From: Microbacterium sorbitolivorans
GTDB taxonomy: Bacteria; Actinomycetota; Actinomycetes; Actinomycetales; Microbacteriaceae
Direction of reading: 5' to 3'
Assembly: GCF_003327285.1 (NCBI RefSeq)
Contig: NZ_KZ848476.1
Location: 1 to 64,000, forward strand
Length of the DNA stretch: 64,000 nt
The position numbers and the translations under genes were made by a program. Positions 2,193 to 58,867 of this stretch are shown here, in pieces. Within the stretch, counting starts at the first letter, position 1, and each line of letters starts with the position of its first letter. The notes beneath the pieces are model-generated. The model searched no databases. It was not told the origin of the DNA and was given only the letters and a program-made list of their open reading frames with translations.

Positions 2193-3631
2193 GACTCATC
2201 GCATTTGAGGGTGTAGGACTGGTCTGAAGCCGCCGGCCTCGAGTAGCGATCGGGCGATGTAGTGGGTCAGGTTCCGGAAGCCCAGCGCGGTGCCGCGGAG
2301 GTGCTCAAGGCGACCGTTGATCGCCTCGGACGGCCCGTTGGACGTGCCGGGGTGGTCGAAGAACGCGAGGACGTCGGCGGCGCGGCGCGTGATCGTGCGG
2401 CCGAGGCTGATTAGCTCGGGCAGGTCCTTCGGAACACCGCTGGTGAGCCCAGCGATCACGGCCTCGAGGATCTTCTTCCCGCGCGCCGGATCCTTGTGTC
2501 GGTATGCGGCGACGGCGCGCTGATAGATATCCCAGGTCACCTCGACGGCGAGGTGGTCGGGGTGGTGCTCGAATACGTCCTCGAGCTTCGCGAGCTGATG
2601 CTGCGTCAACAGGCCGAGCCCCGTCCTGAGCAGGCGCCGGCAACCGTAGAGCGGATCACCCCTCCGGCCTCGATGCCCGAGGGTCTCCTGCTGAACACGC
2701 TGACGGGTCTTGTCGAGAGCGTCGCCGAACAGGGCGACGACATGGAATGGGTCCATTACCGCAACCGCGTCGGGAATCTCTTCGCCGGCGGCGGTCTTGT
2801 AGCCGGTGAACCCGTCCATCGCGACGATGTCGACCCCGTCCCGCCAGGCCTCGGGGCGTCAGGAGAGCCAGGTCTTGAAGGCGTGTTTCGACCGGCCCGG
2901 GATCATGTCGAGCAGCCGGGCGGGGCCGGTCTTCTCGCGGGTCGGGGTGAGGTCGATGATCACGGTCACGTACTTGTCGCCGAGGCGCGTGTGGCGCCAG
3001 ACGTGCTCGTCGACACCGATCGTGGTCACCCCGTCGAACCGGGCGGGATCGTCAATCAGGACGCGCCGCCCTTCGGCGAGGATCGCGTCGCCAGCGGCAT
3101 GCCAGGACACGTCGAGAGACTCCGCGACTCTGGTGACCGGTAGGTGCTGGCAGACGACCGCCTCGAGCGCCCACCGGACAGCGGCGCGCGTGAGCTTCCC
3201 GCGCGGCTCGGCAGCCGCCGTGGTGTCCTCGCGCCAGATCGTCCCGCACGAGGAGCAGGCGAAGCGGCAGACGCGGACCAGGAGCGTCGTCGGCCGCCAA
3301 CCCAGCGGGACATGCGCGAGACGGCGTGCCTGCGTTCCTCGGGCTACGCCCTCAGCACCGCAGCCGCGACAGAACGGGTCGCGGTCGGTGACACGGCACT
3401 CCAGCACCGCCTTGTCCGGCGAGATCTCCTGACCGGTGACGGTGAGGCCGTGGTCGTCGAGGAAGCAGAACGCAGAGAGATCGGGGGTGGTGAAGGTACC
3501 GTGGGACGCGTCGAGGTCTTTCGGATGGCGAGCGTAGGAACTTCCATCATCGGAAGGCCTCGACCTCGTCTCCGCGACCGCCACGCCGCCGGCCCGTCAG
3601 GCGGGCGCTACACCCTCAAACACGATAAGCC
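2193..3631 (-). mobile_element. ISL3-family insertion sequence, nearly complete
   Basis: The element is 1,439 bp and carries one transposase reading frame. Its ends are imperfect inverted repeats of 24 bp: GACTCATCGCATTTGAGGGT... at 2193 and, on the other strand, GGCTTATCGTGTTTGAGGGT... ending at 3631, with four mismatches. The GGCTC-like termini agree with the ISL3 family. The 8-bp sequences immediately outside (gcaaagcc and tgaaaaag) do not match, so no target duplication is visible; one flank may have been rearranged after insertion. Confidence 0.85.
2196..3584 (-). pseudogene. ISL3-family transposase interrupted by one in-frame TGA
   Basis: The reading frame of about 462 codons is continuous except for a TGA at 2859-2861, between residues 241 and 243. 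The N-terminal part has the ISL3 zinc-finger pattern (CRGCG...CSSCG) and a helix-turn-helix region. The DDE residues are visible: D in TIGVDEHVW, D in VAMDGFTGYK and E in SNGPSEAING. The stop lies between the first and second catalytic Asp, so neither fragment alone can be active. There is no frameshift: 13 sense codons link the stop to the downstream ATG in the same frame. Start chosen at 3584, about 25 bp inside the inverted repeat. Confidence 0.85.
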
Positions 3632-3664
3632 TGAAAAAGCTGTATTTTGTGTTATATTGAGCAT

Positions 3665-4087
3665 ATGAAAATGACTTTTCGCGTCAATGTGATTGTAGCT
3701 TCGGTCGGTCTTTTGCTATTTCTTCCGGGGTGTTCATCTTCGACGGATGAGCAAGGTTGTGCCGATATTATATCGCAAGCCACGAAGGTCGCTGAAACGT
3801 TTTCGGACCTGGTAAAGTCGAGTAGTAGCGCAGAAGCTCAAGTGTATGCGGGTGCCGTAACCAGGCACCTGGATAAAACGTCTAGAATAGAACTTGATTC
3901 CTCTGATCTGCGAATCGCGCGGGATGAATGGGTAAGGGCTGCATTTGCTTTCACGGAGACTGTCGAAAATGCTTTTGCTGGCTCGGGTGTTACGGGTAAG
4001 CTAGGCAGCTTTGAGGGGCCTTCGTGGGCCGAGTTTTCCGTAGCGACCGACAATTTGCTTTACGCGTGTGACGAAGAAAATGCTTAA
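3665..4087 (+). CDS. Small AT-rich lipoprotein of unknown function
   Basis: The 140-residue product begins MKMTFRVNVIVASVGLLLF and has a lipobox LPGC, so it should be exported and lipid-anchored through the Cys near residue 24. The rest is mostly helical with no recognised domain. The ATG at 3665 is preferred to an upstream in-frame ATG because it gives a normal signal peptide. A TTATAT -10-like box lies just upstream, next to the IS end. Codon use is clearly unlike its neighbours (many A/T-ending codons, GC well below the rest of the window), which indicates recent transfer. Confidence 0.65.
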   Translation: MKMTFRVNVIVASVGLLLFLPGCSSSTDEQGCADIISQATKVAETFSDLVKSSSSAEAQVYAGAVTRHLDKTSRIELDSSDLRIARDEWVRAAFAFTETVENAFAGSGVTGKLGSFEGPSWAEFSVATDNLLYACDEENA

Positions 4088-4349
4088 TCCGTCGATCTTA
4101 AGAGCGCTAATCATGTGGAGGGGCACAATATCCCGACATGCGCCCGCGCGGCTCACACGCCACTATGCGACTCTACCCCTGCGCCGGAAAGCACCCTTGA
4201 CCGGGCGGTAAGCCGTCAAGGCACGGGCGTATCGGGCGGAAGTGGATTGTGGTCTAGGGGTCGAACGATCGCACTACGTAGAATTGAGGTATCAGCTCGT
4301 AACGCTCCCGGGGAATAACCGGGTTGACGGCTGTGTTCGACTAGTGTGA
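4088..4349. other. Intergenic stretch with no supported gene
   Basis: No convincing reading frame is present. A CCCGG/CCGGG hairpin lies near 4306-4322 and a TTGACG hexamer at 4324-4329 could be a -35 box for the leader RNA that follows, though no good -10 is seen at the usual distance. Nothing else is recognised here. Confidence 0.4.
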
Positions 4350-4436
4350 GAGCCTCTTTCGATCTCCATAGATCGGGCTACCTTCGCGTGAAGGTACTCG
4401 GAGGCTCCAACTCATTAACTGATTGGAGCTTTTTTC
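4350..4436 (+). promoter_or_regulatory. Structured leader RNA: three-way junction competing with a terminator
   Basis: Four perfectly complementary arm pairs are visible. P1 is GAGCCTC (4350-4356) with GAGGCTC (4401-4407). Inside it, CGATCT/AGATCG (4360-4375, loop CCAT) and TACCTTC/GAAGGTA (4379-4396, loop GCGT) make a three-way junction. Downstream, GCTCCAA (4404-4410) pairs with TTGGAGC (4423-4429), followed by six T. The terminator shares bases 4404-4407 with the 3' arm of P1, so the two cannot form together. The terminator stem also covers GGAG, the likely ribosome site of the ATG at 4437. This is the layout of an attenuator or riboswitch; the signal it senses is unknown. Confidence 0.6.
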
Positions 4437-4691
4437 ATGCTTAAGTTCACTGAAACTGTGAGCCCTGGTGCCCCGGTAACTCTCAACCTCCGTTCCGAGG
4501 ATGTTCACGCACCCATCGCCGCAGAGGGTCGTGTTTTCTTCGCGGATGGTAACGGCATCGCGATTACACGAGCTTAGGGCCCTGATTTCGAGTATTACCC
4601 CTGGGCCTCGATCCAGTCGCTCACCGCCCGCGTGCCGGATAAGTACTTCGAGACCGTTCGTCGCTACACCCCGGCGGAGGTGACCCGATGA
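4437..4691 (+). pseudogene. Small mobile-element ORF with an in-frame amber codon
   Basis: Starting at the ATG behind the leader RNA, the frame reads 46 residues (MLKFTETVSPGAPVTLNLRS...), meets TAG at 4575-4577, and then continues in the same frame for 37 more codons (GPDFEYYPWASIQSLTARVP...) to a TGA that overlaps the next ATG. Both halves look protein-like, so this is probably one gene of about 84 codons inactivated by a point mutation; programmed read-through cannot be excluded. The family is not recognised. It is the first gene of a tightly packed three-gene run. Confidence 0.55.
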
Positions 4692-4936
4692 GCGTGGCAA
4701 TGTCAGATCGTCAGTGGCAAGCACTGGAGATCGGGGCGACTTACGCCCTGCTTCCTGTGCGCAAAACGTTCGCGGCGCGGACGGACGGCGCGGGTTCTGT
4801 GGTGCCTGAGTCCGAGGAGCTTATCGGCCGTCTCATCCACAAGTCCTCCGTAACTCTCACGCTCGCTGACGAGCAGACGTTTTCAGTTCAGGCTCACGAG
4901 GTGCGCACGGCTCACAAGATCCGAGGTGCACGATGA
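4688..4936 (+). CDS. Small hypothetical protein in a replication-type operon
   Basis: This 82-residue protein starts MSVAMSDRQWQALEIGATYA. Residues 15-75 look like a small beta-rich domain (ATYALLPVRKTF, SVTLTLADEQTFSVQAHEVR). No family is recognised. It overlaps the preceding ORF by 4 bp (ATGA) and the following primase-like gene by 4 bp, so the three are almost certainly translated together. Such short genes before a replication gene are common in actinobacterial integrative elements and phages. Confidence 0.6.
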   Translation: MSVAMSDRQWQALEIGATYALLPVRKTFAARTDGAGSVVPESEELIGRLIHKSSVTLTLADEQTFSVQAHEVRTAHKIRGAR

Positions 4937-5346
4937 CCCTCACGCTCTCCGCTCTCGAGAAGGCGCTCGGCCTGGCCGCGCTCGGCCTCCCCGTGCTCCG
5001 TACCCGCACCGTTGACGCAGAGGTAGACGGCCGCACTCTGCCCCCGAAATCACCCGTTGGAGGCGTGTACACGGCCACGACGGACTCCGACACGCTCCGC
5101 CGGTGGCTCCGCGAGGGGACGACGTACATACCCGGCGTGGCGACCGGCAACGGCCGGGAGCCCCGCGAAGAAGCACCTGCTGCGCCCGCTGAGGTCGAGG
5201 CGTATCTGGCCTCGCTTGGCGACCGTCCCATGTCGGACCGCGTTGCGGAGGTGCTTGCGGACGTGACTGCACGGGAGGGGGACCATTCGTCGCTGTGGGC
5301 GAAGGTACCGTGGGACACGTCGAGGTCTTTCGGATGGCGAGCGTAG
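4933..5346 (+). pseudogene. Truncated primase-polymerase-like replication gene
   Basis: The first about 120 residues (LSALEKALGLAALGLPVLRT..., AATTD-like YTATTDSDTLRRWLREG, then YIPGVATGNG) resemble the start of the bifunctional primase-polymerase domain found in replication proteins of actinobacterial integrative elements and phages. Full-length relatives are several hundred residues. Here the frame runs at 5301 into a remnant of an ISL3 element and stops after 137 residues, so the catalytic part is lost. The assignment rests on a weak N-terminal match only. Confidence 0.45.
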
Positions 5347-5440
5347 GAACTCCCATCATCGGAAGGCCTCGACCTCGTCTCCGCGACCGCCACGCCGCCG
5401 GCCCGTCAGGCGGGCGCTACGCCCTCCAACACGATGAGCC
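5301..5440 (-). mobile_element. 140-bp end remnant of a second ISL3-family copy
   Basis: Bases 5301-5440 match bases 3492-3631 of the nearly complete IS over exactly 140 bp with about five differences. The fragment keeps the terminal inverted repeat (GGCTCATCGTGTTGGAGGGC... on the minus strand, ending at 5440) and the first codons of the transposase. Everything else of this copy is gone. Its outer end directly abuts the 107-bp tRNA-Phe-derived repeat that begins at 5441. Confidence 0.9.
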
Positions 5441-5547
5441 GCAAAACCCCCGCGATGTAGAAGCTACGCGGGGGTTTCTGGAGTGATTGTAACGATCACC
5501 CTTGTGGCTCCGACCGGCGTCGATCCGGTGACCTTTCGATTTTCAGT
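5441..5547 (-). repeat. Attachment-site copy: 3' half of tRNA-Phe plus terminator
   Basis: This 107-bp sequence is identical to 9069-9175. It contains the tRNA-Phe 3' half from the anticodon loop onward and the downstream CCCCCGCG...CGCGGGGG terminator hairpin. The 5' half of the tRNA is absent, so it cannot make a functional tRNA. It is the hallmark of integration by a site-specific recombinase into the tRNA gene and marks one edge of the 3.5-kb island. Confidence 0.9.
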
Positions 5548-9068: not shown

Positions 9069-9175
9069 GCAAAACCCCCGCGATGTAGAAGCTACGCGGG
9101 GGTTTCTGGAGTGATTGTAACGATCACCCTTGTGGCTCCGACCGGCGTCGATCCGGTGACCTTTCGATTTTCAGT
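9069..9175 (-). repeat. Attachment-site copy within intact tRNA-Phe
   Basis: This 107-bp copy is identical to 5441-5547. Here the repeat joins the native 5' half of tRNA-Phe, so the gene is complete. Identity stops in the anticodon loop on one side and just after the terminator hairpin on the other. It is the island edge at which the tRNA was kept or restored. Confidence 0.9.
9071..9105 (-). terminator. Rho-independent terminator of tRNA-Phe
   Basis: On the minus strand an 8-bp stem CCCCCGCG/CGCGGGGG with a 12-base loop is followed by TTTT. It ends the tRNA-Phe transcript and is duplicated with the attachment site at 5443-5477. Confidence 0.8.
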
Positions 9176-9205
9176 CGAACGCTCTACCAACTGAGCTACA
9201 GAGCC
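9133..9205 (-). tRNA. tRNA-Phe (anticodon GAA)
   Basis: The cloverleaf is clear: acceptor GGCTCTG/CGGAGCC, D arm GCTCAGTTGGTAGAGC, anticodon arm TTCGA-CTGAAAA-TCGAA and a T arm with GATCGAC. CCA is not encoded. It is the integration target of the neighbouring island, and is last in a Glu-Asp-Phe cluster on the minus strand. Confidence 0.95.
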
Positions 9206-58690: not shown

Positions 58691-58867
58691 AACTGCTTCT
58701 CCTTCACCGGCAGGTACGTGCCGGACGATCCTTTGTGAATGAGCGAGGCGCCGAAGCGCTCCGCGCACCCGTCTTTGGGTGCCCGATCAGTATTGCATAC
58801 GTTTCAACCGAGGGCGATTCACAGCGGGTCTCACTATGATCTGCGGGGTACCACGAGGGGGCTATCG

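Follow-up and report, generated by a model that had tools for sequence, protein, structure and literature searches.

Organization of the Locus

We analyzed a stretch of 64,000 nucleotides from Microbacterium sorbitolivorans (contig NZ_KZ848476.1, positions 1 to 64,000), which is called the window here. At 4350–4436 a group of inverted repeats stands directly before three overlapping frames, and sequences of an ISL3-type insertion sequence (IS) lie on both sides. The features that concern us, in window positions, are as follows.

2195–3629, minus strand: ISL3-type IS with its transposase split in two frames (transposase domains, inverted repeats)
4279–4284, plus strand: TAGAAT, the best −10-like hexamer upstream of the leader (score 7, not above background)
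4350–4356, plus strand: 5′ arm of stem P1, GAGCCTC, the pre-emptor strand
4360–4375, plus strand: hairpin P2, 6 bp (4360–4365 with 4370–4375) and a 4-nt loop, CCAT
4379–4396, plus strand: hairpin P3, 7 bp (4379–4385 with 4390–4396) and a 4-nt loop, GCGT
4401–4407, plus strand: 3′ arm of stem P1, GAGGCTC
4404–4435, plus strand: intrinsic-terminator-like hairpin with six T (sequence, folding)
4425–4428, plus strand: GGAG, the ribosome site of ORF1, within the 3′ arm of the terminator
4437–4691, plus strand: ORF1, with an in-frame TAG at 4575–4577 and otherwise open to the TGA at 4689–4691
4688–4936, plus strand: ORF2, 82 aa, with an ATGA overlap at each end (frame list)
4933–5346, plus strand: probable N-terminal remnant of a Prim-Pol gene, ISL3-derived from about 5298 (weak domain and PHROG matches, a relative in the genus)
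5298–5446, no strand assigned: fragment of the end of an ISL3-type IS, a 149-base direct repeat 95% identical to 3489–3637

Structure and Folding of the Leader

The pairs of the leader were checked by script, and all those listed are standard pairs. P1 is a helix of 7 bp (4350–4356 with 4401–4407) that encloses P2 and P3 as a three-way junction with the strands TTT, GGC and CTCG; each inner hairpin is a perfect dyad with a 4-base spacer and lacks G-U pairs. The terminator has an outer stem of 7 Watson–Crick bp (4404–4410 with 4423–4429) and, after a 1-nt bulge, an inner stem of 3 bp (4412–4414 with 4420–4422), and the six T at 4430–4435 follow directly 3′ of the stem. Bases 4404–4407 are common to the 3′ arm of P1 and the 5′ arm of the terminator, and the GGAG in the other terminator arm is 8 bases upstream of the ORF1 ATG at 4437. 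The first-pass annotation had reported three stems of 7, 6 and 7 bp, a terminator with six T, four shared bases and a buried GGAG, and we recovered all of these where it had placed them.

We then considered the folding of growing transcripts. For transcripts ending at 4407 or 4420 the probability of P1 was 0.985–0.997, and at 4435 the terminator was favoured by 1.6–3.8 kcal/mol (P = 0.78–0.985), according to which of three starts was assumed. These predictions support a bistable fold, in which P1 and the terminator are mutually exclusive and near-isoenergetic. Because P1 is complete before the 3′ arm of the terminator exists, read-through should be the kinetic default. The attenuator-like geometry proposed earlier thus agrees with the exclusive, near-isoenergetic predicted folds, with the ribosome site inside the terminator, and with the three frames overlapping by ATGA when ORF1 is read past its stop.

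The same region could also be a small RNA gene whose structured product of about 100 nt, for example a regulator that serves the element in trans, ends at the six T; the ATG at 4437 would then be coincidental. The unit is compact and structured and has a terminator of its own, and the first gene behind it is broken. However, a ribosome site is well placed before the ATG of a set of three overlapping frames, and the overlap of P1 with the terminator would have no evident purpose in a simple small RNA. We therefore regard a small RNA gene as unlikely.

A frame of 32 codons starting with GTG runs across the whole leader (4346–4444) and ends across the start of ORF1; it may be due to chance. Leader-peptide attenuation through this frame was rejected because the frame lacks both a clear ribosome site and a run of a single amino acid.

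Chance Expectation

The criteria of our shuffling analysis were set after the structure was seen, so its figures describe the arrangement and are not a blind test: when the terminator was fixed and 4290–4403 was shuffled 20,000 times with dinucleotides preserved, a P1 of at least 7 bp arose in 371 shuffles, was joined by one or more inner hairpins in 26, and by two in none; when the GGAG was also kept, the corresponding numbers were 506, 24 and 0 of 20,000; and 150 shuffled windows, taken on both strands, gave a total of six strict terminators, one with a P1-like overlap and none with two inner hairpins, against seven, two and one in the real window.

The folding energy of the region was also compared with shuffles, giving z = −3.57 for 4341–4440 and z = −2.73 for 4345–4436 (60 shuffles). 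A z as low as −2.73 was found in 111 of 2,778 window tiles (92-base grid, 20 shuffles each), and the opposite strand folds no less well (z = −4.28). By folding energy alone the leader is unremarkable; its special feature is the arrangement. A terminator scan with loops limited to 8 did not list the leader terminator.

Another explanation places the function in the DNA, with P2 and P3 as palindromes of 16–18 bp bound by a repressor, a simple terminator behind them, and P1 fortuitous. The perfect form of both dyads, with short spacers and without G-U pairs, is in its favour, as is the frequency of P1 alone in the shuffles (371/20,000). However, the half-sites of P2 and P3 differ, and no good second copy of either occurs in the window: P3 is matched at one other place, with three mismatches (two matches were reached in 7 of 100 shuffles), and P2 has 25 matches at three or fewer mismatches where 54 were expected. 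P2 and P3 also sit exactly within P1. Repressor-bound dyads are accordingly an improbable account of the region.

Promoters

No consensus promoter was found on either strand in 3900–5350. The score of 7 reached by TAGAAT was exceeded by the top score in 48 of 200 random 290-base stretches. On the minus strand, the best relaxed candidates in 4230–4520 scored 8 and 7.5, which is ordinary for random stretches of the window; the sole candidate scoring at least 7 that is placed to read the leader, with a start near 4472, has the score of 7.5 and is equally ordinary. No promoter stands above background on either strand, and the absence of a consensus does not exclude one. This agrees with the first-pass annotation, in which no antisense promoter was obvious; a sense promoter is likewise not evident.

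The Downstream Operon and Its Decay

Three frames behind the leader overlap by ATGA, at 4688–4691 (with ORF1 read through its stop) and at 4933–4936; at the first junction the TGA of ORF1 (4689–4691) overlaps the start of ORF2. ORF2 has no family above cut-off, its best match being DarA_N (E 0.068, 13.4 of 27 bits). The third frame scored 16.0 bits against PF09250, for which the cut-off is 22.8, and was equally weak against the excisionase-like PF07825 (15.9 of 23 bits); it matched a primase PHROG at E 0.01, and at E 1.1e-5 an 861-aa frame that itself scores Prim-Pol at 94 bits. After GVATG, the remnant frame has no VDVD-like stretch or DxD motif (compare locus L039), which we take to be the acidic motif of intact Prim-Pol. 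In the stretch from 3638 to 5297 we recognised neither an integrase gene nor a tra gene.

The transposase frames of the upstream IS lie at 2859–3584 and 2196–2819, and its imperfect inverted repeats (2195–2227 and 3597–3629) are 76% complementary. Because the repeat of 3489–3637 at 5298–5446 covers the end of this element, the operon fragment is read as a relic between IS copies. The operon is decayed, with an in-frame TAG in ORF1 and a Prim-Pol gene truncated between ISL3 copies. Of the replication-type operon that had been annotated, the three overlapping frames and the likeness to Prim-Pol remain, but a working operon is not supported. Since the operon is broken, present selection on the leader is doubtful.

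The leader may therefore be a non-functional relic in a decayed element, no longer transcribed, whatever its former role. The stop in ORF1, the truncated Prim-Pol, the flanking ISL3 copies and the lack of a promoter above background are all consistent with this. However, the stems are still perfect, which suggests recent decay or continued selection, and we consider a mere relic to be quite unlikely.

Other features were observed in the window. An identical direct repeat of 107 bases is present at 5441–5547 and 9069–9175, the second copy overlapping a tRNA-Phe gene (9132–9205), and we read the two copies as likely att sites that flank an integrated island some 3.6 kb long. This island carries AbiEii toxin-like and AbiEi antitoxin-like genes and encodes an AAA-like ATPase of 514 aa (AAA_16 at E 1.6e-5, under its cut-off). 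At 58694–58751 on the minus strand there is an msiK leader RNA (RF01747, 56.7 bits).

Search for Relatives of the Leader

Covariance models of Rfam 15 were run on 4090–4700; none of 4,227 families matched at E ≤ 10, and no match at gathering scores was found in the leader region. As far as Rfam goes, the opinion that the structure belongs to no known riboswitch class is borne out.

The leader DNA occurs once in its own genome. Among 98 genomes searched by DNA, ten matched including its own, and none of the other nine matches covers the leader; they cover only query positions 460–484 or 651–691 (window 4759–4783 or 4950–4990). All nine were rejected as relatives because their three-frame translations look like unrelated coding DNA, and we take the frames at these loci to include ABC transporter and PurH-like ones. 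DNA matches in phages (two records) and plasmids (ten records) lie only at 5304–5350, at the IS end.

An RNA model, R1, was made of the single leader sequence given twice. Against 299 genomes of the family, including its own, and with stricter filters, it gave one other match (E 0.079, or E 0.014 when scored among 39 sources), which was judged to be chance because its P1 is mostly missing. Against 76 viral stretches it gave five matches, the best at E 0.066. In viral contigs a long leader pattern had no match, and a loose pattern marked 76 stretches. A possible 7-pair partner for P1 exists at 12 of these 76 places, each with at least one G-T pair; two inner hairpins exist at none. None of these searches, which took in Rfam, phages, plasmids, viral contigs and whole genomes of the genus and family, turned up a relative of the leader.

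In the pbuE adenine riboswitch, P1 of a three-way junction competes with the terminator. A ligand-binding ON riboswitch of this kind, with a three-way-junction aptamer, would share the wiring of the leader, in which the 3′ strand of P1 is common to the terminator and P1 encloses two hairpins, but it is very unlikely here, given that no Rfam family matched, that aptamers are normally conserved whereas no relatives were found, that the leader has 4-nt loops and short junctions, and that P1 is predicted to be stable already without ligand.

Leaders of Other Prim-Pol Loci

As a control, we took 32 Prim-Pol-domain loci of the genus on the correct strand with 1.5 kb upstream; first genes further upstream fall outside this range. 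Thirty of them came from a domain search that listed more than 100 places, spread over 74 of 198 genomes; the other two were obtained separately. The leader layout was found within 1.5 kb upstream of Prim-Pol at none of the 32 loci. Any terminator-like hairpin within this distance was found at four, all weaker than that of the window, and one of these four has a weak competing pair. At a further locus outside the 32 (L016, taken from the genus search with the Prim-Pol remnant), a strong terminator-like hairpin at 1420–1463 ends 35 bases before the Prim-Pol start and has no competing upstream pre-emptor. Thus, the layout is not a general feature of Prim-Pol operons, and the leader recurring ahead of primase operons that the first-pass annotation envisaged is not supported over the 1.5 kb covered at these 32 loci.

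Relatives of the Downstream Genes

ORF1, read with X at its in-frame stop, was searched in 366 genomes of the genus. At E ≤ 0.01 three matched: the window itself and the loci L014 and L013. L014 was rejected because its match falls inside another long gene. The L013 gene, in genome G051 of the same genus, matched at E 0.006, which is not significant alone; its pairwise score with ORF1 was 69 against a maximum of 46 in 5,000 shuffles, which make no correction for the choice of the best genome. Based on the pairwise score and the fitting context, the L013 gene is a probable relative of ORF1. A two-row ORF1 profile matched 5 of 295 genomes, of which three were new (E 0.13–0.18) and were dropped, and none was confirmed in viral or genome contigs. 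ORF1 had no match in phages or plasmids, and the L013 gene none in phages, plasmids or viral contigs.

At L013 the stem of a terminator-like hairpin ends 22 bases upstream of the ATG position of the ORF1-like gene. This gene overlaps a second small frame by GTGA, an AAA_25 ATPase gene follows, and close by, on the opposite strand, is a gene for a serine recombinase. The leader there has a promoter-like site (score 11) with a long 19-base spacer. The terminator loop is complementary, without a mismatch over ten bases (1352–1361 with 1387–1396), to the region of the ORF1-like gene that holds its ribosome site and start. This suggests a switch in which the loop pairs with the ribosome site; in the nested folding model the pairing carries no weight. 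No strong pre-emptor was predicted by folding, and the alignment of the L013 leader with that of the window is no better than shuffles (198 of 300 score as high). A link between terminator and ribosome site, of different geometry in each case, is present at both ORF1-type genes, which is suggestive for a sample of two.

A small integrated-element-like region with a serine recombinase, an AAA_25 ATPase and small genes was observed in G051 (L052, 5400–10600), and the ATPase there is similar, at 38% identity, to the ATPases of two plasmids, one from Streptomyces and one from Kineococcus. A search with the ATPase of the L013 element gave two plasmid and 14 phage records; in one of three stretches examined from such records, a terminator-like hairpin lies between a small gene and the ATPase gene.

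The ORF2 search matched 3 of 366 genomes of the genus, and the two others, at E 0.006–0.007 and inside longer frames, were judged to be chance; no relative was found in viral contigs, phages or plasmids. The Prim-Pol remnant matched 2 of 366 genomes including its own, with none confirmed in genome or viral contigs and none in plasmids or phages at E ≤ 0.01.

Proposed Mechanism

We propose that the region is the leader of a mobile-element operon and that it works, or worked before the decay, as a pre-emptor/terminator attenuator of the pT181 kind, a reading to which we give about an even chance. During transcription P1, P2 and P3 would fold first, and the 3′ arm of P1 (4401–4407) would hold the 5′ arm of the terminator, so that read-through would result. 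Occupying or melting the 5′ arm of P1 would free 4404–4410 to pair with 4423–4429. The terminator, once formed, would stop transcription at the six T and hide the ribosome site of ORF1, whose translation would formerly have been coupled to that of ORF2 and the primase through the ATGA overlaps. We infer transcription of the region, termination within it, and a switch that is set off in trans, for which an antisense RNA or an element-encoded protein is a likelier trigger than a metabolite.

A bolder version of the proposal would make the leader an undescribed three-way-junction riboregulator that responds to an element protein or small molecule and governs how replication operons carried by small mobile elements of actinobacteria are transcribed and translated; we think this very improbable. 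In this version the riboregulator would evolve so fast that all we can see of it so far is the fragment in the window and, by way of the ORF1-like gene, the element in G051.

If an integrated element of an actinobacterium had an attenuator like that of pT181, the mechanism would reach beyond the staphylococcal and streptococcal/enterococcal plasmids of the reviews, and RNA control of the replication of such elements would become testable. With a single copy, a decayed locus and no relatives found, the leader is a lead rather than a system.

Comparison with Known Systems

Among the titles and abstract openings of the literature searched, no attenuator before a Prim-Pol operon was found. According to PMC2965389, the sensing systems of many attenuators change too quickly in evolution to be studied by their conservation, and an orphan leader is compatible with this. 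According to the consulted part of PMC3218068, Prim-Pol is among the replication genes of integrative and conjugative elements of actinomycetes, where it occurs in small operons. In contrast, the window has only an N-terminal Prim-Pol remnant, and neither an integrase nor a tra gene was recognised with it in 3638–5297.

In pIP501, as outlined in portions of PMC4981023 and PMC5703833, RNAIII induces attenuation in the repR leader. The shared feature is a replication gene whose leader ends transcription early, and in the window this is predicted. The antisense RNAIII and the CopR repressor belong to pIP501, and neither is seen in the window.

The closest parallel in anatomy is with the repC leader of pT181, which is described in sections of PMC5703833 as having the antisense RNAI, a pre-emptor and the stem-loop IV attenuator. 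As in pT181, a terminator-like hairpin containing the ribosome site stands directly before a start codon, and an upstream complementary pre-emptor stretch holds the 5′ arm of the terminator (PMC5703833). The genes served are in both cases those of mobile-element replication, which in the window is probable from the Prim-Pol remnant. However, the window has no consensus antisense promoter, its pre-emptor helix encloses two hairpins, its first gene is a small ORF and not the initiator, its operon is decayed, and its host is an actinobacterium. A functional replication initiator of the pT181 or pIP501 type is thus missing, as ORF1 carries the TAG and the Prim-Pol remnant is below the Pfam cut-off, and the antisense RNA would be hypothetical. 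The terminator and the mutually exclusive upstream pre-emptor of the pT181/pIP501 type are both present, as sequence and predicted folds only, and by this anatomy the leader resembles the two plasmid systems. It is a genuine and well-formed attenuator-like leader, most likely of the pre-emptor kind, in a decayed element.
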